In this document: positions 1-59,699 of the stretch, in pieces
Layout of the letters: every line of letters begins with the position of its first letter
Position numbering within the stretch: position 1 is the stretch's first letter
From: Azonexus sp.
GTDB taxonomy: Bacteria; Pseudomonadota; Gammaproteobacteria; Burkholderiales; Rhodocyclaceae
DNA: 64,000 nt
Assembly (NCBI GenBank): GCA_017983615.1
Contig: JAGOBB010000012.1
Location: 1 to 64,000 of the forward strand
Direction: 5' to 3'
Position numbers and translations under genes: made by a program
Notes under the pieces: model-generated
Databases searched by the model: none
What the model was told of the DNA's origin: nothing
What the model saw: the letters and a program-made list of their open reading frames with translations, nothing else

Positions 1-545
1 CCGGCAACGCCCTGGCCACCGTGCAGAGCGCCGACAAGATCAAGGTCATCACCGTCCGTACCACCGCCTTTGCTACGGTCGATGCCAAAAATCAGGCAAA
101 AACCGAAAACATCCCCGCCGGCCCGGACACCCAGCAAACCCAACTCCAACACCGGGAACTCACCAAGTCCGAGCGTCCCGAACTCGGCGCCGCCAGGATC
201 ATCGTCTCCGGCGGTCGTGGCCTGGGCAGTGGCGAGAACTACCACGCCCTGCTTGAACCGCTGGCCGACAAGATCGGGGCCGCCCTTGGTGCCTCACGCG
301 CCGCCGTCGATGCCGGCTTCGTGCCCAACGACTATCAGGTCGGCCAGACCGGCAAGATCGTCGCCCCGGAGCTCTACATCGCGGTTGGCATTTCCGGGGC
401 GATCCAGCACCTGGCCGGGATGAAGGACTCCAAGGTCATCGTCGCCATCAACAAGGACCCGGATGCGCCGATCTTCCAGGTGGCGGATTACGGGTTGGTG
501 GCCGATCTGTTCGAGTCGGTGCCCGCGCTGACCGCCGCCGTCTAA
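1..545 (+). CDS. etfA: Electron transfer flavoprotein alpha subunit (3' part)
   Basis: The gene runs in from the left edge, so the N-terminus is missing. The visible ~180 residues hold the C-terminal FAD-binding domain of ETF alpha, with [11 protein letters not shown], the region around [16 protein letters not shown], and [13 protein letters not shown]. With the beta subunit it passes electrons from acyl-CoA dehydrogenases to the ETF-quinone oxidoreductase, and both partners are encoded directly downstream. A copy of the dispersed TGCTACGGTCGG repeat lies in frame at 69-110 and reads [14 protein letters not shown], in the linker between the two domains. The stop codon is TAA at 543-545. Confidence 0.93.
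69..110 (+). repeat. Dispersed repeat copy 1, inside etfA
   Basis: TTTGCTACGGTCGATGCC followed by an A-rich tail matches the family consensus (TGCTACGGTCGG, then A-runs separated by GGC). It is translated in frame 1 (ATVDAK). Confidence 0.75.
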
Positions 546-568
546 ACAAGAATTTCGGAGATAACACC

Positions 569-2347
569 ATGAGCACCTACATCGCCCCGCTGCGCGACAT
601 GCAGTTCGTCCTCAACGACATCGCCGGCCTTGAAGAAGTCTGCGCCTTGCCCGGCAACGAGGAGTGTTCGGTCGACCTGGTCGATTCCATCCTCGACGAA
701 GCCGCCAAGTTCGCCACCGGCGTGCTCGACCCGATCAACCGCGGCGGCGACAGCCAGGGGGCAGTCTGCAAGGACGGCGTGGTGACCACCTCGCCGGGCT
801 TCAAGGACGCCTACCAGCTGTTCGTCGAAACCGGCTGGAACGCCATGCCCTTCGCCCCGGAATTCGGCGGCCAGGGCCTGCCGGCGCTGGTGACCATGGC
901 GGTCAATGAAATGTGGAAGTCGGCCAACATGGCCTTTGCGCTGTGTCCGATGCTGACCGGCGGCGCCATCGAGGCCATCGCCCACCACGCCTCCGACGAA
1001 CTGAAGCAGAAATACCTGCCGAAGATGGTCGAAGGCACCTGGACCGGCACGATGAACCTGACCGAGCCGAACGCCGGCTCCGATCTCGCCGCCATTTCCA
1101 GCAAGGCCAAGCCGGTCGGCGATGGCAGCTACCTGGTCAGCGGCACCAAGATCTTCATCACCTGGGGCGAGAACGACGTCGCCGAGAACATCATCCACCT
1201 CGTGCTGGCCCGCCTGCCGGATGCGCCGCCGGGCCTGAAGGGCATCTCGCTGTTCCTGGTGCCAAAATTCCTGGTCAACGACGACGGTTCGCTCGGCGCC
1301 CGCAATGACCTGATCTGCGCCTCGATCGAACACAAGCTCGGCATCCACGGCAGCCCGACCGCGGTGATGGCCTACGGCGAGAAGGAAGGCGCCATCGGCT
1401 ACCTGATCGGCGAAGAGAACAAGGGCGTCGGCTACATGTTCACTATGATGAACCACGCCCGCGTCAATGTCGGCCTCGAAGGCGTCGGCATCGCCGAGCG
1501 CGCCTACCAGCATGCGCTGTGGTACGCCCGCGAACGCGTCCAGGGCAAGATCATCGGCGACAAGTCGGATGACAAGAAGACCATCCTGCACCACCCGGAT
1601 GTCCGCCGCCTGCTGATGGACGTCAAGTCGCGCACCGAAGCCATGCGCACGCTGGCCTATTACGCCGCCGCCCAGATCGACAAGGCGCACGCCGGCGATG
1701 CCGCCGCCCAGGCCCGCATCGACCTGCTGACCCCGGTGGTCAAGGGCTGGAGCACGGAGCAGGGCGTCGAGCTGACCTCGGCCGCGCTGCAAGTCTTCGG
1801 CGGCGTCGGCTTCGTCGAGGAAACAGGCGCCGCGCAGTACTACCGCGATTCGCGCATCACCACCATCTACGAAGGCACGACGGCGATCCAGGCCAACGAC
1901 CTGGTCGGCCGCAAGCTGGCCCGCGAGAAAGTGCCGGGCGCCAGCATGCAGGCGCTGATCGCCGAGATGACGGCCACTGCCGGCGAACTGGCCGCCAACC
2001 CGCAGCTGGCCGCCATCGGCAGCCAGTTGCAAGCCGGCATCGCCGCGCTGCAGACGGCCACCGACTGGATCATCGCCAACTACGAAAGCTACCCGCAGGC
2101 CGTCCATGCCGGCTCGGTGCCCTTCCTGCGCCTGACCGGCATCGTCGCCGGTGGCTGGCTGATGGCGAAGTCGGCGGCCATCGCCGTCCAGCGCCTGGCC
2201 GAAGGCAGCAGCGACGACTTCTACCGCGCCAAGCTGGCCACGGCGAGCTACTTCGCCGCCCACCAGCTGCCGTTCGCCGCCGCCTACGCCGCCGAAATGA
2301 CCGGCGGCGCCGAGTCGGTGTTCGCGCTGCCGGAAAACCTGTTCTGA
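569..2347 (+). CDS. Acyl-CoA dehydrogenase with C-terminal extension
   Basis: This 592-residue protein has the acyl-CoA dehydrogenase N-terminal, middle ([11 protein letters not shown]) and C-terminal domains ([25 protein letters not shown]), plus the extra ~120-residue C-terminal domain seen in DmdC-like enzymes. It oxidises an acyl-CoA to the 2-enoyl-CoA and gives electrons to ETF. The start is supported by CGGAG about 10 bases upstream. It lies 23 bp after etfA and 2 bp before the ETF-quinone oxidoreductase gene, so the three genes form a complete electron route to the quinone pool. The substrate cannot be told from sequence. Confidence 0.93.
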
Positions 2348-2349
2348 GC

Positions 2350-3993: not shown

Positions 3994-4012
3994 TACCCAT
4001 CGGGCCGAGCGC

Positions 4013-4050
4013 GGCAAATGCTACGGTCGGCCCCAAAAAAGAGCAAAAAC
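4013..4050 (+). repeat. Dispersed repeat copy 2, intergenic
   Basis: GGCAAATGCTACGGTCGG followed by CCCC and A-runs is close to the full consensus. It sits between etfD and the DUF485 gene. Confidence 0.85.
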
Positions 4051-4097
4051 CAGAACAGCACAAACGTAACCATCATCCACGCAATAAAGGAGGGGCC

Positions 4098-4412
4098 ATG
4101 TCTCAACCCAATATCCAGGCAAGGATCCGGAGCAATCCGAAATTTGCCGAAATGGTCGGCAAGCGCACGCGCTTTGCGATCACCCTGTCGCTGATCGTGC
4201 TGGTGCCGTACTACACCTTCATGATGATCACCGCCTTCAATCCGGCCCTGCTCGCCCAGCCGCTCACGCCGGGTGGCGTCGTCACCGTCGGCTGGCCGGT
4301 CGGTGCCGTGCTGATCGTCGGTTCCTGGCTGCTGACTGGCGTCTACATCCGCCGCGCCAATGGCGAATTCGATGCCCTCAACGAAGAAATCCTGCGCGAG
4401 GCCCGCAAATGA
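4098..4412 (+). CDS. DUF485 family membrane protein (YjcH-like)
   Basis: This 104-residue protein has two membrane segments (about residues 26-46 and 58-80) in the DUF485 pattern, including [22 protein letters not shown]485 genes nearly always precede a solute:sodium symporter gene, and here the stop overlaps the actP start (ATGA). A strong AAAGGAGGGG lies just upstream of the chosen ATG; the open frame extends further 5' through the dispersed repeat but has no better start there. The likely role is as accessory to acetate uptake. Confidence 0.88.
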
Positions 4413-7462: not shown

Positions 7463-7704
7463 CCTGAGCGTCTGCTTTCCCAACGGGGCTAGTCCCGCAA
7501 AGGGTCGGAAGCAGACCATCTCGTCCTTCCGGCTTCATGCCCCTGAGACGATCCTCCGCAGAATGCTACGGTCGGCCCGAAAAAATGGCCAAAATTGAAA
7601 TGGGGGGCGGGGCTTGAGAGCTATTTGCCCAAGGGAAGCCGCATGAGTAATCCCCGCCCGATGGGGGTTGGGACGTTGCTTCGCTACCGATCAACGTTTG
7701 TGAT
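7463..7704. other. Non-coding interval with one repeat copy
   Basis: Only dispersed repeat copy 3 (7561-7601) is recognisable. No promoter or gene is supported. A weak inverted motif CCCCGCCCGATGGGGG lies near 7660. Confidence 0.4.
7561..7601 (+). repeat. Dispersed repeat copy 3, intergenic
   Basis: GAATGCTACGGTCGGCCC, then A-runs and GGCCAAAATTGAAAT, is a near-consensus copy between the cassette ORFs and the histidine kinase. Confidence 0.85.
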
Positions 7705-9513: not shown

Positions 9514-9902
9514 ACCTTGACGGCATTTCCGGTCCGGCTAAATGCGCCAAGGTTTGTCTGGCAGAGTCCGGCGTGTTGGCATCCAATCATTTTTCACTCA
9601 ATGAATGTGTGGCGGTCGGTTCATCGTACGCTGCTTGCACAAGCCTACGTTTCAGGTGGTCCAGAATCAGGCATGTGCTCGGGGATTATGAGCGCTTGCC
9701 GGGGCATTGATTCTGACGATGGTCAAAGGAGTTGCGTATTGGTCGGACAGATGCCGAATGGCAGCATCAGGCGGGCTGGGCCGATCGACGTTTTGTTGAA
9801 ATTTGGTCAAATGCTAGCTCTGCACTTCCTGCGGTCGCGGTCGGCACCAAAAAAAGGCAAAAAACAAATTTTACGCCGGGCCGGAATAGCCGCCCACCAA
9901 GC
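9514..9902. other. Intergenic region with long-variant repeat
   Basis: These ~390 bp between the divergent histidine kinase start and the nrdJ terminator hold no gene I can support. The only structured element is dispersed repeat copy 4 (9808-9870). Confidence 0.45.
9808..9870 (+). repeat. Dispersed repeat copy 4, long variant
   Basis: CAAATGCTA and CGGTCGGCACC are separated by ~21 extra bases that include ACTTCCTGCGG; the A-rich tail follows. The same ACTTCCTGCGG insert occurs in copy 13. Confidence 0.75.
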
Positions 9903-16851: not shown

Positions 16852-16893
16852 AATTCGATTTTGGCCTTTTTTTGGGGCCGACCGTAGCATTTG
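16852..16893 (-). repeat. Dispersed repeat copy 5, intergenic
   Basis: The reverse complement reads CAAATGCTACGGTCGGCCCC, then A-runs and GGCCAAAATCGAATT. It is almost exactly consensus and lies between fabI and the kinase-like gene. Confidence 0.88.
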
Positions 16894-22659: not shown

Positions 22660-23171
22660 GCGCGCCGGTCGTCATCTTCACCGTCGGCAACCCGAGCCGC
22701 GGCGACGATGCCATCGGGCCGGAATGCTACGGTCGGCTCGAAAAAATGCTCAAAAACGAAATTTTGGCCAATGTCGTCGAGCTGATCGAGGATTTCCAGC
22801 TGCAGATCGAACACGCCCTCGACCTGCATGGCCGGCAACTGGCGCTGTTCATCGACGCCGGCGTCGATACTCCGGCACCTTACGTCTTCGAACGCATCTT
22901 TCCGTCGGGCGCCGTCGCCCACACCAGCCACGCGCTCTCCCCGCAGGCCGTGCTCCAGGTCTTCCGGCAGACCGAAGGGAGCGAGCCGCCGCCGGCCTTC
23001 GTGCTCTGCGTGCGCGGCGAGCGTTTCGAACTGGGCGAGGCGCTGTCCGGCAAGGCCTGCGGGCGCGTCGAGGCGGCCGTCGGCCTGGTCGCCGAACTCT
23101 GCCGCCAGCCTGGATTGCCCGCCTGGGAGCAGCTGGCCGGCCAGGCATCGAAAGCGGTCATAAATAGTTGA
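22656..23171 (+). CDS. hoxW: Hydrogenase maturation protease
   Basis: This 171-residue peptidase probably clips the HoxH C-terminus after Ni insertion. The family motif GNPSRGDDAIGP near residue 9, a second acidic Ni ligand in LIEDFQLQ and the His in HTSHALSP are all visible. A dispersed-repeat copy lies in frame just after the first motif (22722-22766) and encodes ECYGRLEKMLKNEIL, so helix 1 of this enzyme is made from repeat sequence. It is translationally coupled to hoxH. The catalytic ligands are intact, so it is probably functional. Confidence 0.9.
   Translation: MSAPVVIFTVGNPSRGDDAIGPECYGRLEKMLKNEILANVVELIEDFQLQIEHALDLHGRQLALFIDAGVDTPAPYVFERIFPSGAVAHTSHALSPQAVLQVFRQTEGSEPPPAFVLCVRGERFELGEALSGKACGRVEAAVGLVAELCRQPGLPAWEQLAGQASKAVINS
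22722..22766 (+). repeat. Dispersed repeat copy 6, inside hoxW
   Basis: GAATGCTACGGTCGGCTC, then A-runs and ACGAAATTTTG, is read in the frame CYGRLEK (frame 3 of the element), unlike etfA and copA. Confidence 0.88.
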
Positions 23172-24491: not shown

Positions 24492-25904
24492 ATGCGTCTC
24501 GGGTTTCTCGGAGCGGCTGGCGAAGTTACCGGTTCCTGCACTCTTGTTGAAGCGGGCGATGTCCGTTTCCTGGTCGATTGCGGGATGTTTCAGGGCGGAC
24601 CCGAAGCCCGCCACAAAAACCAGCGCGCCCTCAACCCGGGCTTCGACGTCCGCCAGCTCGACTTCGTGCTGCTGACCCATGCCCACATCGATCACTCCGG
24701 CTTGCTGCCCCGTCTGGCCATGCTCGGTTTTCGCGGGCCGATCTATGCGACGCCCGCGACCATCGCCCTGCTCGAAGTACTGCTGCCGGACAGCGCCCAC
24801 ATCCAGGAAAAGGAATCGGAGTGGCAGTTGCGCCACCGGCGCCGGCGCGGCCAGGGCGAGCGGGGCATTCAGCCGCCGCTGTATACCGTCGCCCAGGCGT
24901 TGGCCTCGTTGAAGCTGCTGCAGCCTGTTTCCTACGGTAAGCCCGAAAAATTGGCCAAAAACGTCAGCGTGACCTTTCGCGATGCCGGCCATATCCTCGG
25001 CTCGGCCTGGCTGGAGGTCGTTGTCGGCGGTGAGGGCAAGCAGCGCCGGCTGGTTTTTTCAGGCGATCTCGGCATGCCGGACCGGCCGGTGCTCTGCGAT
25101 CCGGCCCCGCCGCCTGCCGAGGCCGACGTGCTGCTGATCGAATCGACCTACGGTGATCGCCTGCACCGCTCGCTGCCGGAAACCGAGGAGGAAATCGTCG
25201 GCGCCATCGAGCGGACGCGGGCAGCCGGCGGCAACCTGATCATTCCCGCCTTCGCTGTCGGACGGACGCAGGAAATCATCTATCTGCTGGCCGATCTGGT
25301 CGGCCGCAAGCGCATTTCGTCGCTGAAAGTCTATGTCGATTCGCCGATGGCCAATGCCGCGACCCGCATCACGCTGGACAATCCCGAGCTGCTCGACCCG
25401 GAAACGCGCGAACTGATCGCCTGGCAGCGCGCGCATCCGGACCGCATGCACATCGAGTTCGTCGCCGATGTCGAGCGCTCCAAGTCGCTCAACGAAATTC
25501 GCCATGGCGCGGTGATCCTCTCGGCCAGCGGCATGTGTGAGGCCGGGCGGATCAAGTACCACCTGCGCGAGAACCTGCCGCGCAGCGAATGCAGCGTGCT
25601 GATCGCCGGCTTCCAGGCGGCCGGGACGCTCGGTCGGCGCCTGGTGGACGGGGCTCGGCTGGTGCATATTTTCGGCCAGCCGGTGCCGGTCCGGGCGCGC
25701 ATCTATACCGTCGGTGGATTGTCGGCGCACGCCGACCAGGCGGCGCTGCTCAACTGGCTACGCGGTTTCCATCGGCCGCCTGGTCAGACGTTTGTCGTCC
25801 ATGGCGAGGCTGGTGCGTCGGCCAATTTCAAGCGTGCCATCGAAGAGGAACTGGGCTGGCCGGCTGTGCGTTTGCCGCTGCCCGGCGAATTCGTATCGCT
25901 GTAA
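24492..25904 (+). CDS. Metallo-beta-lactamase/beta-CASP RNA-processing exonuclease-like protein
   Basis: This 470-residue enzyme is of the bacterial CPSF/Ysh1-like type. The metal site TLAHAHIDHSG-like LLTHAHIDHSG lies near residue 64, the later metal His in DAGHILGS, the Asp in FSGDLG, and beta-CASP motifs in IPAFAVGRTQEI and GGLSAHADQ. It probably hydrolyses RNA. The start has GGGAGGA ~10 bases upstream; the frame opens 18 codons earlier without support. A weak in-frame repeat copy at 24930-24963 encodes SYGKPEKLAKN just before DAGHILGS. Confidence 0.88.
   Translation: MRLGFLGAAGEVTGSCTLVEAGDVRFLVDCGMFQGGPEARHKNQRALNPGFDVRQLDFVLLTHAHIDHSGLLPRLAMLGFRGPIYATPATIALLEVLLPDSAHIQEKESEWQLRHRRRRGQGERGIQPPLYTVAQALASLKLLQPVSYGKPEKLAKNVSVTFRDAGHILGSAWLEVVVGGEGKQRRLVFSGDLGMPDRPVLCDPAPPPAEADVLLIESTYGDRLHRSLPETEEEIVGAIERTRAAGGNLIIPAFAVGRTQEIIYLLADLVGRKRISSLKVYVDSPMANAATRITLDNPELLDPETRELIAWQRAHPDRMHIEFVADVERSKSLNEIRHGAVILSASGMCEAGRIKYHLRENLPRSECSVLIAGFQAAGTLGRRLVDGARLVHIFGQPVPVRARIYTVGGLSAHADQAALLNWLRGFHRPPGQTFVVHGEAGASANFKRAIEEELGWPAVRLPLPGEFVSL
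24930..24963 (+). repeat. Dispersed repeat copy 7 (weak), inside the beta-CASP gene
   Basis: TCCTACGGTAAGCCCG, then A-runs and GGCCAAAAACG, matches the consensus apart from GTAAG for GTCGG. It uses the same reading frame as copy 6 (YGKPEK). Confidence 0.5.
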
Positions 25905-29933: not shown

Positions 29934-31232
29934 ATGCAAGCACTGATGGCCTTCGAAAACGCGCCGCCCTTCGCGGCTCCGCTGCGTTTCTTCCTGACCG
30001 CGCCGCTGTTTGCCGTTCTCGCCGGGCTGCTGGTGGCCTTCGAGGGGGCGGACATCTTCGCTTCGCGGTGGACGCCGGGGGCGCTGGCCGCAACGCATCT
30101 GCTGACCGTCGGCTTCATGATGCAGGCCATGCTGGGGGCGCTGATCCAGATTCTTCCGGTCGTTGCCGGGGCCAATTTGCGGCATCCGCTCAGGGTTGCC
30201 AGAATCGTTCATCCCGGTCTTTCGCTCGGGGCGCTGCTGCTGGCGACCGGGCTTTACCTGACCAATCCTGCACTGCTTACCGGCGCTGCCTTGCTGTTGG
30301 GGCTGACGGTGGCCTTCTTCCTGTTCTCCACCGTGCGCGCCCTGATCGGCGTACCGACGACCAGCCCGACCATTCGGGGTGTCAAACTGGCGCTCCTCGG
30401 CCTGACCAGTGTCGTCGGCATAGGCATCATCATGGCGCTGGCGCTGGCCTATGGCTGGGCCATACCGCTGCCGGCGCTGGCCGATCTGCATGCCGGTTGG
30501 GGCCTGGGTGGTTGGGCCGGTGTGTTGCTGGCCGCCATCGCCTACGTCGTCGTTCCGATGTTCCAGCTGACGCCGGGTTATCCGTCCCGCCCCAGTTGGT
30601 GGTTTCCGGTCGCCATGCTGGCCATGCTACTGCTGTGGAGTATCGCCCTGCTGGTTGATTGGCCCTGGCTGGTCCGCCTCAGCCAGCTGGTCGCCGCCGT
30701 TGCCGGCATCGCCTTTGCCGGCCTGACCTTGCGCCTGCAGGGCGGGCGTCGCCGGGCGCGGGCGGATGCGACCTATCGCTACTGGCAGCTCGGTTTGTCG
30801 TCAAGCATTTTTGCCCTTTTTTTGCTCTCGACCGTAGCATTGTGGCCTGCCGCCGCCGAGATCGACGGCTGGACGCTGTTGTTCGGCATATCGCTGGTGG
30901 CCGGCGGTTATTTGCCGTTCATTGCCGGCATGATTTACAAGATCGTTCCCTTCCTGGCCTGGATGCATCTGCAGACCTGCGGGCAGGCCAAGCTGCCGGC
31001 GCCGGCCATGAACAAGATTCTGGCTGATGCCGAGGCAAACCGGCAGTGGCTGGCCTATGCCGGCGCGCTCGGTCTGCTGCTCGCTGCTGCATTGTTTCCA
31101 CGCTGGCTGGCGATACCGGCCGGGTTGGCGTTTGCAGCCGCCAACGGCTGGTTGTGGTGGAACCTGTGGCGCGCCTTCCGTCGCTACGGCCAGTATCGGG
31201 TCGATATCCTCAACAAGCTGGCGGTACCTTGA
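29934..31232 (+). CDS. NnrS-like polytopic membrane protein
   Basis: This 432-residue protein has about 12 membrane helices. Conserved-looking His residues are in ATHLLTVGFMMQAM (helix 2), RIVHPGLSLG, ADLHAGWG and AWMHLQT. The layout recalls NnrS or haem-copper-oxidase subunit I relatives linked to NO stress; I cannot be sure of haem binding. A dispersed-repeat copy (30804-30842) is read in reverse inside the gene and forms a membrane segment SIFALFLLSTVALWP (about residues 291-305). The next gene overlaps its stop. Confidence 0.65.
   Translation: MQALMAFENAPPFAAPLRFFLTAPLFAVLAGLLVAFEGADIFASRWTPGALAATHLLTVGFMMQAMLGALIQILPVVAGANLRHPLRVARIVHPGLSLGALLLATGLYLTNPALLTGAALLLGLTVAFFLFSTVRALIGVPTTSPTIRGVKLALLGLTSVVGIGIIMALALAYGWAIPLPALADLHAGWGLGGWAGVLLAAIAYVVVPMFQLTPGYPSRPSWWFPVAMLAMLLLWSIALLVDWPWLVRLSQLVAAVAGIAFAGLTLRLQGGRRRARADATYRYWQLGLSSSIFALFLLSTVALWPAAAEIDGWTLLFGISLVAGGYLPFIAGMIYKIVPFLAWMHLQTCGQAKLPAPAMNKILADAEANRQWLAYAGALGLLLAAALFPRWLAIPAGLAFAAANGWLWWNLWRAFRRYGQYRVDILNKLAVP
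30804..30842 (-). repeat. Dispersed repeat copy 8, inside the NnrS-like gene
   Basis: The reverse complement reads CAATGCTACGGTCGAGAGC followed by A-runs. The antisense frame of the element is translated here as hydrophobic IFALFLLSTVAL. Confidence 0.85.
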
Positions 31233-39407: not shown

Positions 39408-39833
39408 ATGAAAATTTTGTTGCCGGTTGATGGCTCAGCCTGTGCGTTGCGTGCGGTCGATCATCTGATCGCCCATGCCGCCTGGTTCCGCGAAGTGCCG
39501 GAAATCCACCTGTTGCACGTCCATCCACCGATTCCGATCGGCCGGGTCCAGGCGCACGTCGGCAAGGAAACGCTGCATGCCTACTATCTGGAAGAGGGGC
39601 AGGCGCAATTGGACGAGGCCCAGAAAAAACTCGACGCTGCCGGCAAGTTTCATACGACGCACATCCACGTCGGTCAGCCGGCCGAGGTGATCGCCCGGAT
39701 GGCCGGCGAACTGGGCTGCGACCTGATCGTCATGGGGACGCATGGCCGCGGTGCTGTCGCCGGCATGGTCATGGGGGCGGAGGCGAATCGAGTGCTGCAT
39801 CTGGCGCCATGTCCGGTGCTGTTGGTCAAGTGA
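39408..39833 (+). CDS. Universal stress protein UspA family
   Basis: This 141-residue Usp domain has [16 protein letters not shown] at the N-terminus and [22 protein letters not shown] as the ATP-binding segment. It lies 15 bp after the TauE-like gene, and its stop overlaps the GTG of copA (GTGA), so it is probably in the copper operon. It is distinct from the UspA at 24 kb. Confidence 0.91.
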
Positions 39834-41995
39834 GCGATCGGGAGCAGGGGCGGGTCGTCGAGTTCGCCATTGGCGGGATGACGTGCGCCGCCTGTTCGGC
39901 GCGTCTGGAAAAAGTCTTGAATCGCCAGCCGGGCATGCAGGCCAATGTCAATCTGGCGGCAGAGCGGGCGCGCGTCCGGTTGCTGGATGCGGCGGACGAG
40001 GCGGCGGTGGTGGCTGCAGTGGCCAAGGCGGGGTTTACCGCGGCGGTGGTCGACAGCCAGACCAGGGAGCGCGAGAAAGCAGAAAAACTGCAGGTTTACC
40101 ACCGGGAGATCCGGCGTTTCTGGATTTCGGTGATCCTGACTTTGCCGCTGATCGGACAGATGCTGTTCATGTTCGGCGAACATGGCCATCAGAACGAGTT
40201 GCCGCGCTGGCTGCAATTGGCGCTGGCGACGCCGGTGCAATTCTGGATTGGCTGGCGTTTCTACGATGGCGCCTACAAGACCCTGCGCGGCGGCGGTGCC
40301 AACATGGACGTGCTGGTGGCGCTCGGCACCAGCATGGCCTGGGGATTCTCGACGGTGGTGACGGTGTTCGGGCTGGCTCAGCACGTCTATTTCGAGGCCG
40401 GGGCAGCGGTGATCACGTTGGTCCTGCTCGGCAAGCTGCTTGAAGCACGCGCCAAGGCGCGGACCTCGGAAGCGATCGAATCGCTGATCCGCTTGCAGCC
40501 GAAGACGGCGCGCGTCGAGCGCAACGGGCAGTGGGTGGACATGCCGGTCGAGACCTTGATGCCGGGCGACCTATTTCTGGTGAGGCCGGGCGAGAGCATA
40601 CCGGTGGACGGCCAGGTGGTCGATGGCGAGTCGAGTGTCGACGAGGCGATGCTGACCGGCGAAAGCATGCCAGTCGGCAAGCGTGCCGGCGACCCGGTTT
40701 TTGCCGCCACGGCCAATGGACAGGGTGCCTTGCGCTGCCGGGCGACCGGGGTTGGCGAACATACGCTGCTGGCCGGCATCATCCGGCTGGTTGGTGAGGC
40801 CCAGGGTTCAAAGGCGCCGGTGCAGCGGCTGGCTGACCGGATTTCGGCGATCTTCGTACCGGTGGTCTGCGCCATCGCTTTGGCCACGCTGCTTGGCTGG
40901 TGGGGGTATTCCGGACAGTTTGCCGAGGCGTTGGTCAATGCCGTGGCCGTGCTGGTCATCGCGTGCCCCTGTGCGCTTGGCCTGGCGACGCCGACGGCGA
41001 TCATGGTCGGGACCGGGCAGGGCGCAAGGGCCGGCATTCTGGTCAAGAATGCCGAGGCGCTGGAACGGGCTGAGAAGATTACAGTGCTGGCGCTCGACAA
41101 GACCGGCACCTTGACCAGCGGCCGGCCGCAGCTGACCGATATCGTGGCGCTTGGCATCGTCGGTGACGACGCACTCGCCCTGGCCGCGGCGCTGGAGCAG
41201 AACTCAGAGCATCCGCTGGCACGGGCCATTGTTGCGGCAAATGCTACGGTCGATGGCAAAAAAGTGGCAAATTTCAAATCCCTTCCCGGTCAGGGCGTCG
41301 AGGGCGAGGTCGATGGTCGGCGTTTGCGGCTGGGCTCACCGGACTGGTTGGGGATCGGTGCCGATCCGGCAGTGATCGCATTGCAGCAGGCCGGCAAGAC
41401 GGTCATGGTACTGGCCGAGGGCGCTGAAGTGCTGGCGCTGTTCGCGGTTGCCGACGCTTTGCGCCCGACTTCCAAAGCTGCCGTCCGGCGCCTGCGCGAG
41501 CGTGGCATCCGGGTCGTCATGCTGACCGGCGACAATGCGGCGACGGCGGCTGCCATCGCGGCCGAGGCCGGTATCGACGAATTCCGCGCCGGCATCCTGC
41601 CCGGCGACAAGGCGGCGGCGGTGGTCGAATTGAAGGCGTGCGGCGGCCTGGTGGCGATGGTCGGTGACGGCATCAACGACGCGCCGGCGCTGGCGGCAGC
41701 CGATGTCAGCTTTGCCATCGGCGCTGGTTCCGATGCCGCGGTCGAGGCGGCGGATTTAACATTGATACGCAGCGACCTGTCGGGTGTAGACGACGCAATC
41801 GCCCTGTCTACGGCCACCTTGGGGAAAATCCGGCAAAATCTTTTCTTTGCTTTCATCTACAATGTGCTGGGAATTCCGCTAGCGGCCATGGGCCTGCTCA
41901 ACCCGGTAGTGGCGGGAGCCGCGATGGCGTTGAGCTCGGTGTCGGTGGTTTCGAACTCGCTGCTGCTCAAGCGTTGGCGGGCGGGGAACGAGTAG
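39830..41995 (+). CDS. copA: Copper-exporting P1B-type ATPase
   Basis: This 721-residue pump has an N-terminal HMA domain ([14 protein letters not shown], ~15-75), eight membrane helices with CPC in [14 protein letters not shown], the phosphorylation site DKTGTLT, HP motif [26 protein letters not shown], and the Cu(I)-specific last helix [19 protein letters not shown] use GTG 39830 overlapping the UspA stop; ATG 39809 is in frame. A dispersed repeat at 41236-41279 is read in frame as [14 protein letters not shown] in the nucleotide-binding domain just after the HP motif. All catalytic motifs remain intact. Confidence 0.94.
41236..41279 (+). repeat. Dispersed repeat copy 9, inside copA
   Basis: GGCAAATGCTACGGTCGATGG, then A-runs and GGCAAATTTCAAAT, is read in frame 1 (NATVDGKK), as in etfA. 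Confidence 0.85.
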
Positions 41996-44011: not shown

Positions 44012-45091
44012 GTGGCGGAAGATAAAGTCAGGCTGACGCAGCTATCCCATGGCGGCGGTTGTGGTTGCAAAATCGCGCCCGCCGTGTTGCAGAAGATTCT
44101 TGCCGGCGTGCCATCGAGCATCGTTCCGCCGCAACTGCTGGTCGGCACGGAAACCTGCGATGACGCGGCGGTATATCAGATCAATCCGCAGCAGGCGATC
44201 GTCGCGACGACGGATTTCTTCATGCCCATCGTCGACGACCCTTACGATTTCGGACGGATTGCCGCGACCAACGCCATATCCGACGTGTACGCCATGGGCG
44301 GCACGCCGCTGTTCGCGCTGGCCATCGTTGGCATGCCGGTCAACACGCTGCCGCTGGAAACCATCGGCCAGATCCTGCAGGGGGGCGAGGCTGTTTGCCG
44401 CGATGCCTGCATCCCGATTGCGGGCGGTCACACCATCGATTCGGTCGAGCCGATCTATGGCCTGGTAGCCATCGGTATCGTCAATCCGGCGCATCTGAAG
44501 CGCAATTCCGGCGCCCGGCCGGGCGACAAGCTGATTCTCGGCAAACCGCTTGGTGTCGGTGTCTACAGTGCGGCGCTGAAAAAGGATCAATTACCGGCCG
44601 GCGCTTACGATGCGATGGTCGCCACGACGACCCAGCTCAATACGCCGGGGCCGATGCTCGCCTGTCTCGACGGCGTGCACGCGGTGACCGACGTGACTGG
44701 CTTCGGCCTTGCGGGGCATCTGCTCGAGGTCTGCCAGGGCAGCGGCCTGCGGGCTACGGTCCGCTACGCTGACCTGCCGGTGTTGCCCCACGCCCGCGAA
44801 CTGATCGAGGCCGGTTTCCAGACCGGCGCCTCGGCCCGGAACTGGACGAGTTACGGTGATCGGGTGGCAATTAATGCTACGACCATAGAAACAAAGGCTG
44901 GCCCCAGGGTCGGCCCGGAAAATACGGCAAAAACGCTGCTGACCGACCCGCAAACTTCGGGCGGCCTGCTCGTCGCCTGTGCCCCGGATACGGTCACCGA
45001 AGTCCTGTCGCTGTTCCTGCAGCAGGGTTTCTCGCACGTTTCCGTGATCGGCGAGGTCGCCGAAGGCGAACCGGGCATCGACGTCGTCTGA
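44012..45091 (+). CDS. selD: Selenide, water dikinase (selenophosphate synthase)
   Basis: This 359-residue enzyme makes selenophosphate from selenide and ATP. The N-terminal GGGCGCK has Cys, not selenocysteine, at the catalytic position near residue 17. DDAAVY, TDFFMPIVDDPYDFG, GGHTIDSVEPIYG and DPQTSGGLLV are intact. A variant dispersed repeat (44866-44934) sits in frame near the C-terminus, and adds a segment (NATTIETKAGPRVGPENTA) between the YGDRVAI and LLTDPQTSGG regions. GTG start. No selA, selB or mnmH is in the window. Confidence 0.93.
   Translation: MAEDKVRLTQLSHGGGCGCKIAPAVLQKILAGVPSSIVPPQLLVGTETCDDAAVYQINPQQAIVATTDFFMPIVDDPYDFGRIAATNAISDVYAMGGTPLFALAIVGMPVNTLPLETIGQILQGGEAVCRDACIPIAGGHTIDSVEPIYGLVAIGIVNPAHLKRNSGARPGDKLILGKPLGVGVYSAALKKDQLPAGAYDAMVATTTQLNTPGPMLACLDGVHAVTDVTGFGLAGHLLEVCQGSGLRATVRYADLPVLPHARELIEAGFQTGASARNWTSYGDRVAINATTIETKAGPRVGPENTAKTLLTDPQTSGGLLVACAPDTVTEVLSLFLQQGFSHVSVIGEVAEGEPGIDVV
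44866..44934 (+). repeat. Dispersed repeat copy 10, long variant inside selD
   Basis: GGCAATTAATGCTACG is separated by ~27 bases from GGTCGGCCCGG and the A-rich tail. As in copies 4 and 13, the insert falls within the ATGCTACGGTCGG core. It is read in frame 1. Confidence 0.65.
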
Positions 45092-47647: not shown

Positions 47648-47692
47648 ATTTCGATTTTGGGCAAAAAATCCGGCCGACCGTAGCTTTTTGCC
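47648..47692 (-). repeat. Dispersed repeat copy 11, intergenic
   Basis: The reverse complement reads GCTACGGTCGGCCGGATTTT, then TTGCCCAAAATCGAAAT. It lies between the siderophore receptor and the iron-binding protein gene. Confidence 0.82.
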
Positions 47693-50232: not shown

Positions 50233-50256
50233 CGATTTTTACGTACGGATTGCACT

Positions 50257-50298
50257 TCGGTTTTGTGCCATTTCCGACAGGCGACCGTAGCATTTTCA
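50257..50298 (-). repeat. Dispersed repeat copy 12, intergenic, degenerate
   Basis: The reverse complement reads AAAATGCTACGGTCGCC, then a degenerate tail with GGCACAAAACCGAA. It lies between bfd and the bfr pair. Confidence 0.65.
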
Positions 50299-51528: not shown

Positions 51529-51600
51529 GGGCAAATGCTATCCCCCAAGGGGACTTCCTGCGGGGCGCGGTCGGCCCCCAAAAATGGCCAAAATCGAAAT
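51529..51600 (+). repeat. Dispersed repeat copy 13, long variant
   Basis: GGGCAAATGCTA, a ~27-base insert containing CCCCCAAGGGG and ACTTCCTGCGG, then GCGGTCGGCCCCC and the A-rich tail ending GGCCAAAATCGAAAT. Confidence 0.8.
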
Positions 51601-51641
51601 TCCGTCCCGGGTGTCAGCAAATTGGCGATTGCCACAATCAG

Positions 51642-53913: not shown

Positions 53914-53938
53914 GGTCATACCTCTGGGGGTTGGTTGT

Positions 53939-53960
53939 GTCCATTGTAGCCATAATGGAC
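53939..53960. promoter_or_regulatory. Operator palindrome of the Phd/ParE module
   Basis: GTCCATT, 8 bases, AATGGAC: a perfect 7-bp inverted repeat 26 bp upstream of the antitoxin start. Confidence 0.7.
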
Positions 53961-53990
53961 ATTCCGGCAAGCATCTGTCGATGCACCCTC

Positions 53991-54235
53991 ACCAGACAAA
54001 AATACCAGCGTCCAGATCGTCGCGATCAGCCCGACCGGCAGCATGGCCAGCCCGGGAATTGATTTTTTTGGGCAAATTTGCCGCTGACCGTAGGATTAGC
54101 TAGAAAACCAGCCACAGGCTGCCCATAAAGCCTGCGCCGAGCCGGGCGATGCGAAGGTAGGCAGCCAGCCGAGCCATATTTGCTTGGCCTTCAGGTGGGT
54201 GACGGTGAGCATCGAAAAGCCGAGAATGACGCTGG
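53991..54235 (-). pseudogene. Partial duplicate of the ftrD 3' end
   Basis: This segment aligns end to end with 57098-57346, the last ~82 codons of ftrD. Translation still shows SVILGFSMLTVTHLKAKQ and IWLGWLPTF, against SVILGLSMLTVTHLKAEH and LWLGWLPTF in ftrD. It has scattered mismatches and a one-base loss near the stop codon. It has no start and is not a gene. Together with ftrD it brackets the helicase/AbiC-like pair like a pair of direct repeats. Confidence 0.88.
54057..54102 (-). repeat. Dispersed repeat copy 14, in the ftrD duplicate
   Basis: The reverse complement reads TCCTACGGTCAGCGG, then an A-rich tail with GCCCAAAAAAATCAATT. It is the diverged counterpart of copy 15, so the repeat was in ftrD before the duplication. 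Confidence 0.75.
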
Positions 54236-54305
54236 AAAAGGTCTGACCCCTATTGTTTCCTATTGTTTCGCGGGTTTGATCAGCCGGACCCAAATTATTC
54301 TATCT
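54236..54305. other. Left junction of the inserted cassette
   Basis: Homology to ftrD stops at 54235. The next bases, AAGGTCTGACCCC followed by two CTATTGTTTC copies, resemble GGGGTCAGACC-type sequences seen next to REP-associated or IS elements (recognised by eye only). Confidence 0.4.
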
Positions 54306-55223
54306 TCACCCAAGAGCCCCGCTGTAATAGCTCTTGTGGCTTGGGTCCAGCAAAAGATCAATATCCAAATTCTGAAAAAACTCATACTTATTTGCAAGCG
54401 GCCAAAATTTCTTATAGCCGTACGGACTTACCCCATTGTAAAAAAACAATAATAATTCGTACGTTGAAAGTTGTGCTCTTAATATCCTACAAAATCTTCT
54501 TTTCTCGCTATCAGGAAGATCTGATTCGTCAATAAATCGAATCAAATGGTATACCGTTCTAAAATAATGCCCTACATCTGCTTGATGCTCCATAAAGAGG
54601 TAAACATAGGCCTTGACTGCATCTTGGGCTGGTCCTCCTCGTGATGTGACAAGTTCAGAGTAGTCAGTTTGATTTATAACCCTTTCTATTCTGGAGCGTA
54701 GTGCTTCGCTCCGAACGGATCCATCTCCTTTTTTGAAATGTGCATATGCATTTTTTAGAGTTGAATTAAAAAAATAACTAAAGCAATCCCTGCCTTGACG
54801 AATAACAACGCCTTCCCTGTTGCGGATATCTAATAGTTTTATATTGTCTTGGTACGCTCCAAGAAGGGCAAAAAAACTGCTCTCAAATACTTGGCGCTTG
54901 ATTGTCAAATTTTGTGCCTCAAGCTGCTCCTTTTGCCCCCGTATTTCGATTCTTGTACTTTCCAATTCCTCTCGCTGTAAAGATAACTCCTCTCTCTGCA
55001 GGAGAATCGTATAAATTAGGCCGGCAAAAGCAAACGCTGAAAATAGAGCATTAATTGCACCAAACATATCTCCAAGTTGCCCTGCTTTGGTAAGGTCGTG
55101 GTCAACCAATAGCGGCACCAGCGCAAAACTGGCAAATCCATAAAACACCCAAAGAAGGAATAAGCCTCCAAGCAGTTTTAACAAAGTAGATATCCCAAAT
55201 TTTTTCGATGATTCATTAGTCAT
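54306..55223 (-). CDS. AbiC-like (putAbiC) membrane protein, putative phage defence
   Basis: This 305-residue protein has two N-terminal membrane helices (about 12-35 and 50-72) with GDMFGAINALFSAFAFAGL. A coiled coil follows (about 75-110, LQREELSLQREELESTRIEI), then a cytoplasmic domain with SSFFALLGAYQDN and YFRTVYHLIRFID. This is the pattern of the putative phage abortive infection family. Low G+C and codon use differ sharply from the housekeeping genes, a sign of transfer. The ATG lies inside the helicase gene's last codons (8-bp overlap), so the two are translationally coupled. Confidence 0.8.
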   Translation of the reverse strand: MTNESSKKFGISTLLKLLGGLFLLWVFYGFASFALVPLLVDHDLTKAGQLGDMFGAINALFSAFAFAGLIYTILLQREELSLQREELESTRIEIRGQKEQLEAQNLTIKRQVFESSFFALLGAYQDNIKLLDIRNREGVVIRQGRDCFSYFFNSTLKNAYAHFKKGDGSVRSEALRSRIERVINQTDYSELVTSRGGPAQDAVKAYVYLFMEHQADVGHYFRTVYHLIRFIDESDLPDSEKRRFCRILRAQLSTYELLLFFYNGVSPYGYKKFWPLANKYEFFQNLDIDLLLDPSHKSYYSGALG

Positions 55224-57012
55224 TTTTTTCCATCCTTTTCTCTTCGCTGATGATCACCAACTCTCTGGTCGCCCGTGTTATCGCCACATACAACAACCGC
55301 GCCTCCTCATCCTTCCGCCCTTCATCCACCACCCGCCCAGCCCCCGCTATCGCCACCAGCGGAAACTCCAGTCCCTTGCAGCTATGCATGGTCAGGAACT
55401 TCACGGTGTCTTCCTTTTCCGCGAAGGTGATGTCGTCCTGGTACGTGACCGGGATACCGGCTTTCCTTAGCGTGGCGAGTACCGGTTTGCCGATGCCGTA
55501 GTCGCGGTAGATGACGGCCATGTCGCTCCATGGGGTGCCGGTTTTGTGGGCTTCCTTGAGGTGTTTTGCGATGTAGTCGGCTTCTTCCTGGATGCTGGGC
55601 AGTTCGATCAGCAGTGGTTTGGGGCCGTGGCGGCCGGCGCTGATGGGGGTGACGAGCGGAATGCCGTCTTCGTCCGAGGCGGTCGGCTTGAGCAGGTCGC
55701 TGGCGATGCCGCTGGCCAGTTCGAGGACTTCCTGGGTGTTGCGGTAGTTGATCTTGAGGATGGTGGTGCGGCCCTGGGCCTGGATGCCGAGGCTCTTGAA
55801 GCTGAGTTTGCCGCGCTTTTCGCGGCCGTAGATGGATTGGGCGTCGTCGTAGAGGACGAGCAGCGAATTGGTGCTCGGATTGACCATCTGGGCGACGAGC
55901 TTGAGCCATTCGGGCTGGAAGTCGTGGCCTTCGTCGATCAGCACGGCGTCGTACTGGCCGGCCGGGATGATGTTGGCGTCGACGGCGCGGATGATGCGGT
56001 CGACGAGTTCACCAGCGTAAGCGTCGCTGTCCTTGTTGTTTTCCGGCAGACCGGCGTTGTAGGCGACGAGTTGCGCCCTGCACCATTGGTGGAAGGTGTG
56101 GACGTGGGCCTTCTCGGCCAGCCCCTTGGCCGCTATCGTGCGGGTCAGGCGCTTGGCCAGGGTGCGGTTGTAGCAGAGGATCAGAATCGGTCGGGCGCAG
56201 ATCTTGGCCAGATGTTCTGCCCGATAGCCGAGGATCAGCGTCTTGCCGCTGCCGGCCACGCCGTGGATGACGCGGTGGCCTTCGCCCAGGCTGCGGGCAA
56301 GTTGTTCCTGCTGCAGGTCCATGACACGGACGATATCGGGGATTTCCGGTTCCTGATCGTCGAACAGGCCGTTTTGCGTTGGTGCGGCAATGCGGATTTC
56401 CGGGAATAGATGCCAGCGGATGCGGTCGATTTGCGGCAGGGCGAGCGGTACGCTGCGGGCGAAGGGGAGCATGCCCCACAAGCGTTCCTGGAAAGCTTCG
56501 GCATCAACGCTTTCGGTCATTTCATCCTGGCAGATGACGCGGTGGGCTTCGATGACTTCGCCGAGGTTGGTGCTGTCGAATTGCTTGCGGCTGATGTTGG
56601 CCAGCACGACGCCGTAGCTCCACGGGAAGAGCAGGGTGCCCTGGAGGCGGCCGCTGTTGATGGTCAGCTGCGGGTCGCGTTGCAGCAGGTTGCTGACTTG
56701 GTGGGCGTATTGCCGGGCTTGTTCCAGCGGATTGGCGACGCGCTTGAGGCCGTTGGGGGTGAGGATGCTGGTGCTTTGGCGGTCGATGTCCTGGATCGTA
56801 TCCAGCTTCCAGTCCTTGACCTCCAGTACCAGCAAACCACGGCGGGGGTTGAAGACGACGAAATCGGGATGCACATTGCGCGGCCCGAGCGGTACGTCGT
56901 ACCAGAGCATCCAGTCGTCTTCGAGCTTCTGTTCTAGGCGGTTGGCGAAGCGTCGCTCGCCGCCGGTCATATTCGAGACGCAAGTGCCGATTGCCGGTAT
57001 CAGCGTAGCCAA
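55216..57012 (-). CDS. NERD-domain nuclease fused to UvrD-type helicase
   Basis: This 598-residue protein has an N-terminal NERD nuclease-related domain (about 15-130) with PDFVVFNPRRG and LEVKDW. A superfamily 1 helicase follows: Walker A HGVAGSGKT near residue 245, Walker B LIDEGHDF, motif IV-V segments ILKINYRNT and TMHSCKGLEFPLV, and motif VI VAITRATREL. The acidic and Lys residues of the nuclease site are present. TTG start with GGGAG just upstream; the next good ATG would trim 14 residues. It is coupled to the AbiC-like gene, suggesting nucleic-acid sensing or cutting in defence. Confidence 0.85.
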   Translation of the reverse strand: MATLIPAIGTCVSNMTGGERRFANRLEQKLEDDWMLWYDVPLGPRNVHPDFVVFNPRRGLLVLEVKDWKLDTIQDIDRQSTSILTPNGLKRVANPLEQARQYAHQVSNLLQRDPQLTINSGRLQGTLLFPWSYGVVLANISRKQFDSTNLGEVIEAHRVICQDEMTESVDAEAFQERLWGMLPFARSVPLALPQIDRIRWHLFPEIRIAAPTQNGLFDDQEPEIPDIVRVMDLQQEQLARSLGEGHRVIHGVAGSGKTLILGYRAEHLAKICARPILILCYNRTLAKRLTRTIAAKGLAEKAHVHTFHQWCRAQLVAYNAGLPENNKDSDAYAGELVDRIIRAVDANIIPAGQYDAVLIDEGHDFQPEWLKLVAQMVNPSTNSLLVLYDDAQSIYGREKRGKLSFKSLGIQAQGRTTILKINYRNTQEVLELASGIASDLLKPTASDEDGIPLVTPISAGRHGPKPLLIELPSIQEEADYIAKHLKEAHKTGTPWSDMAVIYRDYGIGKPVLATLRKAGIPVTYQDDITFAEKEDTVKFLTMHSCKGLEFPLVAIAGAGRVVDEGRKDEEARLLYVAITRATRELVIISEEKRMEKND

Positions 57013-57095
57013 AACCGCTCCCTATGCTTTTGTATTTGTCAGATTATGCCATTCAAAAGTTATTGGGAGTTTTGATAATTTGTCAGATTCGTGAA

Positions 57096-58487
57096 TTACC
57101 AAACAAAAAACACCAGCGTCCAGATCGTTGCCATCAGCGCGACCGGCACCAACATGGCCAGCCCGGAAATTGATTTTTGGGCAAAATTTGCTTCCGACCG
57201 TAGCATTAGCTGGATAGTCAGCCACAGGCTGCCCAAACAGCCGGCGCTGAGCAGTCCGATGCGGAAGGTCGGCAGCCAGCCGAGCCACAAGTGTTCGGCT
57301 TTCAGGTGGGTGACGGTGAGCATCGACAGGCCGAGGATGACACTGGCCGCGGCGAGCGGGGTCAGGGCGAGGGTGAAGCGTTGCCAGGTCAGGTGTTCGG
57401 TCTTCAGCAGGCGGGCGGCGATGGCCGGGCCGATCAGTAGCAGGCTGCCGAGCAGGAAGCCGCCGCCGAGCAGGTAGGCGAGGATCAGCGCGCCGTCGAG
57501 CCAGGTGAAAAGGTCGCTGGCTTCCGGGTAGTGGGTGAGCAGCCACCAGGGCACGTCGTTGTCGAGCAGCGCGAAGTGGTCGTGCTCGACCAGCCATTCG
57601 GCGAGCGCCAGCTTGGCGTGCAGGAACCACGGGCTGAGCGTCCACTGGAAGGCGGCGGTGGCAACGCCGAGCACGCCGTAGACGAGCGTCAGCGCGTCCG
57701 GCGTCCGGGCCGGGTTGTTGAAGTCGAGGATTTCGCTGAACGGCGAACGGGCGGCGTAGGTGACGGCATCGCGCTGGCCGGCGCAGCGGCCGCAGCTATG
57801 GCATTCGGAGGCGCTGGTCATGCGCCGGACGTCGAGCAGCGGGGCGCAATTGACCGGCTCGAAGTCACCCTGGTGGCGATCCCAGGCGGCGCGGTCGACT
57901 TTGTAGTGCAGCGGGGCGATCTTGGCGAGTACGGCGAAGACGCCCGAGGCCGGGCACAGGTAGCGGCACCAGATGCGCTTCTCACGGCCGTAGAGCAGGC
58001 CGATGCCGGCGGCGGCGACGGTCGATCCGCCGAGGACCAGCAGGGCGGCCTGCGGGTATTCGTAAACGCTGACCAGTTGGCCGTAAACGGTGGTGCACAC
58101 GAAGGCGATGAAGGGCCAGCCCGACCACTTGAGCCAGCGCGGCAGGGCCTTGCCGCGGCCGTACTGGCTGACCCATTCGGAGACGGCGCCTTCCGGGCAG
58201 AACAGGCCGCACCAGACGCGGCCCATGGTCACCGTGGCGATCATGACGCCCGGCCACCACAGGCCCCAGAAGCAGAATTGCGCGAACAGCCGGAGGTTGT
58301 CCCAGATGTGCGCGTCTTCCGGCGGCAAAGGCAAAAACGCCGGGATGATGACCATCGCGGCGTAGAGGATGACGATCAGCCACTGGATGCCGATGATCAG
58401 GCGGCGGTTGCGGCGCAGGAAGAGGCCGATTTTTTCCAGCCGGTTGCGCGGGCGGCTGGGGTGAAACTGAATGACCTGCTCAGCCAT
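57096..58487 (-). CDS. ftrD: Ferredoxin-like membrane protein FtrD of the FTR1 iron system
   Basis: This 463-residue NapH/NosR-type protein has about 8-10 membrane helices. Polyferredoxin Cys motifs are RVWCGLFCPEG, RIWCRYLCPASG and ECHSCGRCAG with an earlier CAPLL. FtrD-type proteins are thought to move electrons in FtrABCD ferrous-iron uptake. The ATG at 58487 overlaps ftrC and has GGAG at 8 bases. A dispersed repeat is in frame near the C-terminus (57168-57210, reading MLRSEANFAQKS). Its last ~82 codons are duplicated at 53991-54235. Symbol by analogy with Bordetella ftrABCD. Confidence 0.85.
   Translation of the reverse strand: MAEQVIQFHPSRPRNRLEKIGLFLRRNRRLIIGIQWLIVILYAAMVIIPAFLPLPPEDAHIWDNLRLFAQFCFWGLWWPGVMIATVTMGRVWCGLFCPEGAVSEWVSQYGRGKALPRWLKWSGWPFIAFVCTTVYGQLVSVYEYPQAALLVLGGSTVAAAGIGLLYGREKRIWCRYLCPASGVFAVLAKIAPLHYKVDRAAWDRHQGDFEPVNCAPLLDVRRMTSASECHSCGRCAGQRDAVTYAARSPFSEILDFNNPARTPDALTLVYGVLGVATAAFQWTLSPWFLHAKLALAEWLVEHDHFALLDNDVPWWLLTHYPEASDLFTWLDGALILAYLLGGGFLLGSLLLIGPAIAARLLKTEHLTWQRFTLALTPLAAASVILGLSMLTVTHLKAEHLWLGWLPTFRIGLLSAGCLGSLWLTIQLMLRSEANFAQKSISGLAMLVPVALMATIWTLVFFVW
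57168..57210 (-). repeat. Dispersed repeat copy 15, inside ftrD
   Basis: The reverse complement reads GCTAATGCTACGGTCGGAAG, then a tail with TTTTGCCCAAAAATCAATTT. It is translated in frame 2 of the element (MLRSEANFAQK) on the cytoplasmic loop before the last helix. Confidence 0.8.
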
Positions 58488-59283
58488 GGCCAGTTCTCCG
58501 CCAGGCAATCAGCACGATGCCCCAGTAGCTCAGCCAGGCGAGCAGGCCGCTCAACGTCGGGCGGGCTCGGTAGCCGGAGAAGTCGGCGAGCAGCTTGCCG
58601 CCGGTCGTCGTGTCGTCGAGCAGCCGTGAGCTGTCCCACACCGGGTCGAGCAGCGGCGGCAGCCAACCGGCGCCGATCAGGCGGTCGATGGCGGTGAGCA
58701 GCAGGGCCGAGGCGAGGATCAGTAGCAGGATGGACGACAGGCGCAGGAGCAGCGCGATATTCAGGCGGGCCAGGCTGCGGGCGGCCAGCCAGGCGGTGGC
58801 GCCGGCCGCGCCAAAGCCGGCCAGCGAACCGACCCACAGTGGCATCAGGTCGCCGGCCTGGGCGAGGCCGTAGAGAAAGATCACCGTTTCGGCCCCTTCG
58901 CGGGCGACGGCCAGGGCGGCGACGACGGCAACACCCAGGTAGCCGGAACGTTCGCGGGCCGCCGCCAGGTCGGCATGCAGGCGGGCCTTCATCTGCCGGC
59001 CGTGCTTGCGCATCCACAGCACCATCTGGGTGATCAGGCCGGCGGCGACGAACAGCGTCGCGGTCTGGAAGATCTCCAGCGCCTCGCCGGTCAGTTCGTC
59101 CTGCACGCTGAGCAAGGCCCAGCCGAGCAGCAGGGCCAGCCCGGCCCCGGCAGCGAGACCGCCGAACAGCGCGCGCTTGCCCTTGCCGCTGGCGTCGTTG
59201 GCCTGCAACCAGGCGAAAAGTATCCCGGCGATCAGGAAAGCTTCGAGGCTCTCCCGCCAGACGACAAAAAATGCGTTACCCAT
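58480..59283 (-). CDS. ftrC: FTR1-family iron permease
   Basis: This 267-residue permease has seven membrane helices and the two iron-binding REXXE motifs: WRESLEAF near residue 9 and AREGAETV near residue 128. It is the permease of the FtrABCD system. It overlaps ftrD by 8 bp and lies ~83 bp after ftrB. The weak CCAGCC-type motifs (AGCTGGCTGGCGG at 59353) lie in the spacer and in ftrB's end. Confidence 0.93.
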   Translation of the reverse strand: MGNAFFVVWRESLEAFLIAGILFAWLQANDASGKGKRALFGGLAAGAGLALLLGWALLSVQDELTGEALEIFQTATLFVAAGLITQMVLWMRKHGRQMKARLHADLAAARERSGYLGVAVVAALAVAREGAETVIFLYGLAQAGDLMPLWVGSLAGFGAAGATAWLAARSLARLNIALLLRLSSILLLILASALLLTAIDRLIGAGWLPPLLDPVWDSSRLLDDTTTGGKLLADFSGYRARPTLSGLLAWLSYWGIVLIAWRRTGHG

Positions 59284-59366
59284 CTGCTGCTCCGAGCTTG
59301 CTGGCTATCTGGCCTGATCCGCCCATTGCGAAGCAGACCAGTGGTTTCAATTAGCTGGCTGGCGGT

Positions 59367-59699
59367 TTATTTGGCGACGATCCGGCCTTGGCCGGTGTCC
59401 GGATGGAAATCGTCAAAAAACTTGTAGGTACCCGGTCGCATCGGGAAAAACACCAGGTTCCGGGTGACGCCGGGGGCGAGCACCAGTTCCTTCTTCAATT
59501 CCAGGCTCTCGAATTCCGTGGCACCCGGCCCTTCGTTCTTGACCTCCAGCCGGAAGCGAACGCCGGCCGGCACTTCGACCGTTTCGGGGAAAAACCGGCC
59601 GTTCTTCATCAGTAGCTTGAAAGTTGGCATGTCGTCGGCAAATGCTACGGTCGGCGCCAAAAAAAGGCCAAAAACCACGGAAAGGAGCGCGCGTTTCAT
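59367..59699 (-). CDS. ftrB: Periplasmic cupredoxin-like protein FtrB
   Basis: This 110-residue protein has a signal peptide (1-21, VAFA-DD) and a cupredoxin domain (MKNGRFFPETVEVPAG, FPMRPGTYKFFDDFHPDTG). In Bordetella-type systems FtrB works with FtrA to oxidise Fe(2+) for FtrC. The canonical Cys of blue copper proteins is absent, as in this subgroup. The hydrophobic core and cleavage region of the signal peptide (VFGLFLAPTVAFA) are encoded by a dispersed-repeat copy read in reverse. It lies 10 bp after the porin-like gene. Confidence 0.87.
   Translation of the reverse strand: MKRALLSVVFGLFLAPTVAFADDMPTFKLLMKNGRFFPETVEVPAGVRFRLEVKNEGPGATEFESLELKKELVLAPGVTRNLVFFPMRPGTYKFFDDFHPDTGQGRIVAK
59637..59676 (+). 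repeat. Dispersed repeat copy 16, forming the ftrB signal peptide
   Basis: GGCAAATGCTACGGTCGGCG, then A-runs and GGCCAAAAACC, close to full consensus. It lies antisense to ftrB and is translated as FGLFLAPTVAFA. Confidence 0.9.

Follow-up and report, generated by a model that had tools for sequence, protein, structure and literature searches.

What is a sequence of about 40 bp doing at some 16 places in 64 kb of a bacterial chromosome, on both strands, within genes as well as between them? The question is raised by the window, the 64,000-nucleotide stretch of an Azonexus sp. contig analysed here, for which an earlier note had listed the copies of a dispersed repeat and had weighed a DNA-uptake-type signal, a protein-binding site and a MITE-like element as explanations.

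An abundant repeat with a rigid core and phased A/T tracts

The repeat is real. In the genome that contains the window (G000; 2,921,885 bases, 2.92 Mb, in 34 contigs, 86% complete), the 12-mer TGCTACGGTCGG occurs exactly 244 times (129 and 115 on the two strands) as against once for its reversed control, so the genome-wide abundance, which the earlier note had left to be counted, is far above chance. Within the window, 21 matches lie within two mismatches of this 12-mer, compared with a mean of 6.03 in shuffled sequence, and none of 100 shuffles reached 21. A position matrix for the whole element, built on 461 kb of G000, gave 93 hits in 461 kb of this genome and 73 in 400 kb of a sister species (G029), with no hits for the reversed matrix in either case. 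Over 701 kb of G000 the matrix found 136 copies, a count that takes in at least one right half of a split copy, or approximately one per 5.2 kb (~0.2 per kb). Perfect cores also outnumber imperfect ones: ATGCTACGGTC was found 123 times without and 23 times with one mismatch in these 701 kb, whereas the corresponding counts were 0 and 7 for the reversed word, and 4 and 58 and 0 and 8 for two shuffled words. No named repeat family with a matching sequence was found, in agreement with the earlier note.

The consensus reads AATGCTACGGTC, RRCCSS, an A/T tract, NGGCC, a second A/T tract and CGAAAT. With the T of TGCTACGGTC numbered as position 0, AA occupies -2 and -1 and TGCTACGGTC itself positions 0-9, where each base is conserved at 96-99% in G000. 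RR, CC and SS follow at positions 10-15, the first tract at 16-21, then NGGCC and the second tract at 27-31, which places the tract centres about 10.5 positions apart. After the second tract come C, G/C, AAA and A/T up to position 37, and the matrix for G000 carries no signal beyond -3 to +38. The G and C of the core hardly vary, and within the tracts between one fifth and one third of copies have T in place of A. The consensus is strong and its edges are sharp, and it does not fold into a hairpin (folding z-score -0.09), which bears out the earlier observation that the repeat lacks strong self-complementarity.

The element is present at all 16 places previously listed for the window, six of which carry the exact 12-mer. 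Twelve are ordinary copies (some degraded), one (24927) is clearly degenerate, and three are split by an insert, a feature that the earlier list had overlooked. The matrix makes 14 hits in the window, one of which (51560) is the right half only of a split copy. The copies are as follows:

68..108, plus strand: uptake-like element, core with one mismatch, matrix score 45.7
4016..4056, plus strand: uptake-like element, matrix score 53.2, exact 12-mer
7561..7601, plus strand: uptake-like element, matrix score 64.7, exact 12-mer
9809..9876, plus strand: split copy, 21-bp insert in the core at about 9817-9837
16852..16892, minus strand: uptake-like element, matrix score 64.9, exact 12-mer
22722..22762, plus strand: uptake-like element within the ORF at 22656-23171, matrix score 57.6, exact 12-mer
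24927..24967, plus strand: degenerate copy (CTACGGTAAGCC) in a metallo-beta-lactamase/beta-CASP gene, matrix score 32.1
30802..30842, minus strand: uptake-like element, matrix score 42.3
41239..41279, plus strand: uptake-like element within the P-type ATPase gene at 39809-41995, matrix score 54.4
44872..44942, plus strand: split copy, 27-bp insert at about 44882-44908
47648..47688, minus strand: uptake-like element, matrix score 52.2
50255..50295, minus strand: uptake-like element with a degenerate tail, matrix score 31.5
51533..51603, plus strand: split copy, 27-bp insert at about 51541-51567
54058..54098, minus strand: degenerate uptake-like element, matrix score 34.6
57168..57208, minus strand: uptake-like element, matrix score 46.2, exact 12-mer
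59640..59680, plus strand: uptake-like element in a cupredoxin gene region, matrix score 53.5, exact 12-mer

At 54309-57012 in the window, a putative phage abortive-infection gene (putAbiC) adjoins a NERD/UvrD-type helicase gene.

The inserts are not peculiar to the window. A split-core pattern has 17 matches in G000, and in 12 of them the core of a copy is interrupted by an insert from one of three families: 27 bp and TCCCCCAAGGGGACTTCCTTCGGGGCG-like (six), 27 bp and GACCATAGAAACAACGGCTGGCCCCAG-like (four), or 21 bp (two). They occupy one fixed place in the core, are also found in G029, and recur beyond the window at L044, L071-L078, L055, L056 and L067. At 44874 in the window, the G029 orthologue has the plain uninterrupted motif where G000 has the insert, and a site in L033 shows the reverse polymorphism. 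Similar units lie outside any motif in two motif-poor genomes, G072 (L121, L256) and G071 (L130).

Placement and origin of the copies

Copies show no bias between the strands of G000. In the single-contig genome G089 they divide 60 to 68 by strand and are interleaved along the first 100 of the 128 listed, a mixing that rules out replichore polarity of a Chi- or KOPS-like kind. One stretch of G089 (2.67-3.02 Mb) is a long gap in the motif, yet looser matches are present there. Spacing is more regular than random: across 103 gaps in the 701-kb sample, the coefficient of variation was 0.603 compared with 0.930 for random placement, with three pairs closer than 1 kb (23.9 expected) and none closer than 300 bp (8.5 expected), and none of 2000 simulations was as low in any of these three measures. 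Closely spaced, oppositely oriented pairs are accordingly absent below 300 bp among these gaps. Separately, three G000 copies (L036 ~1698, L044 ~17521 and L088 ~10696) lie in segments of about 550 bp that align multiply, in both orientations, in G067 and G076.

With respect to genes, 74 of the 136 copies were intergenic, 52 coding and 10 partial, close to the earlier estimate that about half are intergenic and indicating a preference for non-coding DNA though 77% of bases were called coding; the intergenic share is an overestimate, because the rough gene finder used misses genes. Convergent gaps are favoured, holding 27 of the 84 non-coding or partial copies against ~20% of intergenic bases, and divergent gaps are avoided. 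Of the 52 copies inside genes, 36 share the strand of the gene and 25 fall in a single frame, read as NATV; a reading-frame preference is documented for uptake sequences in the accessible text of PMC2346458. The excess in convergent gaps is what one would look for in transcription terminators or other RNA signals at gene ends. Such signals, however, would have to function without a hairpin, in both orientations and, for at least 52 of 136 copies, within genes, so that we regard the probability of this explanation as close to negligible.

To distinguish substitution from insertion, copies were aligned with other members of the genus, an approach for which the consulted portion of PMC1626085 provides a precedent in H. 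influenzae. The 313 site-genome pairs, which are non-independent and exclude duplicated genomes, comprised 37 skipped for having more than one alignment, four bearing inserts, 197 with a core and 75 without. The last of these represent 51 distinct copies; 38 aligned with no gap at all, and the longest single gap seen in any relative was 18 bp. When random 42-mers were added to the same 75 queries as a positive control, a gap of at least 25 bp appeared in 48, the alignment was broken in 14, and the addition went unseen in 13. Four alignments broken at the site were found among the real copies, and in no case did the break have the layout expected of an empty site. At the ATPase site (41239 in the window), 30 genomes carry the motif, another dialect of it or neither, differing only by substitutions and all with the reading frame kept. 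Because orthologous sites that have no core show no gap of element length, these alignments indicate that copies come about by substitution, not insertion.

This result bears directly on the MITE-like reading, which did not survive the comparison, as the length of an orthologous site is unchanged where the motif is absent. A mobile or copied element (a MITE, a REP with its RAYT transposase or an insertion family) would account for the strong consensus and sharp edges, which resemble those of a young dispersed repeat, and some copies do contain inserts of 21-27 bp, in three families. It would not account for the missing insertion footprint, for substitutions that preserve the reading frame, for the lack of a hairpin, for regular spacing, or for the exchange of A and T within the tracts where uniform decay would be expected, and we consider it very improbable.

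Dialects, competence genes and a candidate uptake system

Among 60 relatives, the exact G000 12-mer is abundant in G000 and G029 only. Other relatives carry CTRCGGTCAACCGGAAAAAA at the aligned ATPase site instead, and TGCGGTCAACCGG occurs 117 times in G067, 50 times in G003 and 39 times in G034; CTACGGTCAACCGG is likewise a dialect of the tag, distinct from the G000 type. A generic pattern was matched 302 times in G077, 285 in G076, 213 in G067 and 149 in G000. Of the 76 genus genomes searched, 13 have 100-302 matches, with 0-1 for the reversed control, and many have only 0-2; across all 76 the reversed controls give 0-3. Matrices for G076, G067 and G089 show the architecture unchanged and the core letters different, G067 having mostly an RCGGTC core. 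Dialects are also swapped in place, as at L080:7384 compared with G067 and at window 59640, where G076 has its own dialect and G072 none; G076 likewise carries its own dialect at the position aligned with 57168, and another dialect is intact in G076 at the site of the degenerate copy at 24927. Unbiased de novo 10-mer counts ranked the motif first in G067 and G076, and recovered nothing motif-like in G072, G071 or G035. In G008 and G031, TGCGGTCGACCGCA, a palindrome related to the core, was matched on both strands at several places.

Beyond the genus, 373 genomes from 67 other genera of the family, searched for the known dialects, gave 0-2 matches each. Among the matches listed, the motif appears in records under the names Dechloromonas (including D. 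denitrificans ATCC BAA-841 and Dechloromonas sp. Dech2017), Azonexus, Rhodocyclaceae and unclassified proteobacteria. A one-gene tree of 30 genomes implies at least five changes between motif-rich and motif-poor states, from which we draw little because its deep forks are weak.

Dialects weigh on the second of the earlier readings, that the repeat is a chromosome-wide site for an intracellular protein of nucleoid organisation, segregation, repair or regulation, regular because it is needed at intervals. Part of this stands, in that the even spacing and a sharp core with phased A/T tracts would suit an architectural protein that bends DNA. It explains fewer features, however. There is no strand or replichore polarity; an excess of perfect over one-off cores is described, in the portion of PMC1626085 consulted, as unlike the sites of regulatory proteins; hundreds of sites, some within genes, would have to change dialect together between sister species; and the site would have to be dispensable, because it is nearly absent from part of the genus (0-2 matches in many of the 76 genomes). 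We therefore think this explanation unlikely.

Genes for natural competence are present. G000 encodes ComEC, DprA, a ComEA-like HHH protein scoring above the curated cut-off, and two neighbouring prepilins, one of the ComP_DUS family (PF16732, scoring 37 bits where the cut-off is 27.3) and the other GspH/FimT-like. Across 76 genus genomes, ComEC was found in 71, DprA in 75 and a ComP_DUS pilin in 70. These genes permit an uptake function but do not prove it, and their presence does not discriminate, because motif-poor species have them too. The class of ComP_DUS pilin was considered as the determinant of dialect, but genomes rich in the motif and genomes poor in it both include strong as well as weak matches, and comparison of pilin matches across the genus tied no receptor to the dialects. 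Broken comEC genes were likewise considered as a cause of motif loss. The gene is interrupted or split in G002, G068, G018, G005, G035 and G008, but also in motif-rich G029 (interrupted) and G079 (frame split), and no clear association emerged. The interruptions in G002 (L318/L320), G068 (L321/L323) and G018 (L325) fall at the same codon (~349-351 in the G000 frame), those in G002 and G068 being ~32-34 kb long and having, immediately within their left end, a gene with a Resolvase/Recombinase domain, and a different interruption lies near codon 330 in G005 (L324) and G029 (L329).

Abundance, architecture, spacing, origin by substitution and dialects together argue for the first of the earlier readings, a DNA-uptake-type signal. 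Judged from genome sequence, the repeat is probably (roughly four chances in five) the DNA uptake sequence of an Azonexus/Dechloromonas-type betaproteobacterium, with a build like that of the Haemophilus USS. We infer a receptor, an uptake preference and a resulting drive that would operate as follows. A type IV minor pilin would bind the rigid core AATGCTACGGTC on free DNA, and the two or three A/T tracts that follow, about one helical turn apart, may make it easier for the duplex to bend into the secretin. Retraction of the pilus would then pull the DNA in, and ComEA, ComEC and DprA would pass a single strand to recombination. Tags created by point mutation would spread because tagged fragments are taken up and recombined more often, and a drift of receptor specificity in one lineage would shift its tags together into a new dialect. 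More speculatively, the 27- and 21-bp inserts could be minimal mobile DNAs that target the tags, riding on transformation or switching tags off, and the shared TGCGGT with phased A/T tracts could reflect a single mode of pilin recognition that evolved in, or moved between, Pasteurellaceae and Azonexus-type bacteria; this combined proposal we hold to be doubtful.

If the uptake reading is true, a single genus of freshwater and wastewater-type bacteria would possess uptake tags, complete with dialects, losses and many species without tags. This would allow one to test when and why tags arise, whether they depend on a mucosal habitat, what pilin recognises them and in what way an entire genome moves from one dialect to another, and it would offer a practical means of transforming these bacteria.

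Comparison with known systems

REP/BIME elements and MITEs are dispersed short repeats, partly intergenic, and the repeat shares these properties with them. It differs in having neither a hairpin nor an insertion footprint, and in changing dialect in place.

In the accessible text of PMC12616744 and PMC7811141, Neisseriaceae and Pasteurellaceae are the only families for which uptake sequences are described. Our literature search, which did not extend to subscription papers and preprints, found no uptake sequence in Rhodocyclaceae or Dechloromonas among the matches listed. As far as the available part of PMC3630211 goes, the repeat has in common with the DUS of Neisseriaceae a betaproteobacterial host, hundreds of copies, species dialects and the ComP-type minor pilin family (PF16732). 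The DUS, however, is presented there without flanking A/T tracts and has an unrelated sequence (GCCGTCTGAA), and its CTG core is not the conserved part of the repeat.

The likeness to the USS of Pasteurellaceae (Hin-USS AAGTGCGGT) is closer in build. According to the consulted portions of PMC1626085, PMC7811141 and PMC12616744, the USS likewise combines a short, rigid core with two A/T-rich segments on one flank, about a helical turn apart, and shows perfect cores in excess of singly mismatched ones, no preferred orientation, spacing that is more even than chance would give, a non-coding preference, an origin other than by insertion, and subclade dialects; the TGCGGTC dialect of G067 even shares TGCGGT with it. 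The repeat differs in its betaproteobacterial host, in a G000 core of GCTACGGTC in place of ANNNGCGGT, in a further A/T block and in the GGCC between the tracts. It is also about fivefold sparser, the density in Haemophilus and Neisseria being close to one per kb, and has no closely spaced pairs, which in their oppositely oriented form are a feature of some USS and DUS but not a defining one (PMC1626085, in the part consulted). Since the repeat thus shows the features of USS and DUS apart from density and close pairs, in a Pasteurellaceae-type architecture, it would represent a third, apparently independent, self-tagged uptake system beyond those of Neisseriaceae and Pasteurellaceae.
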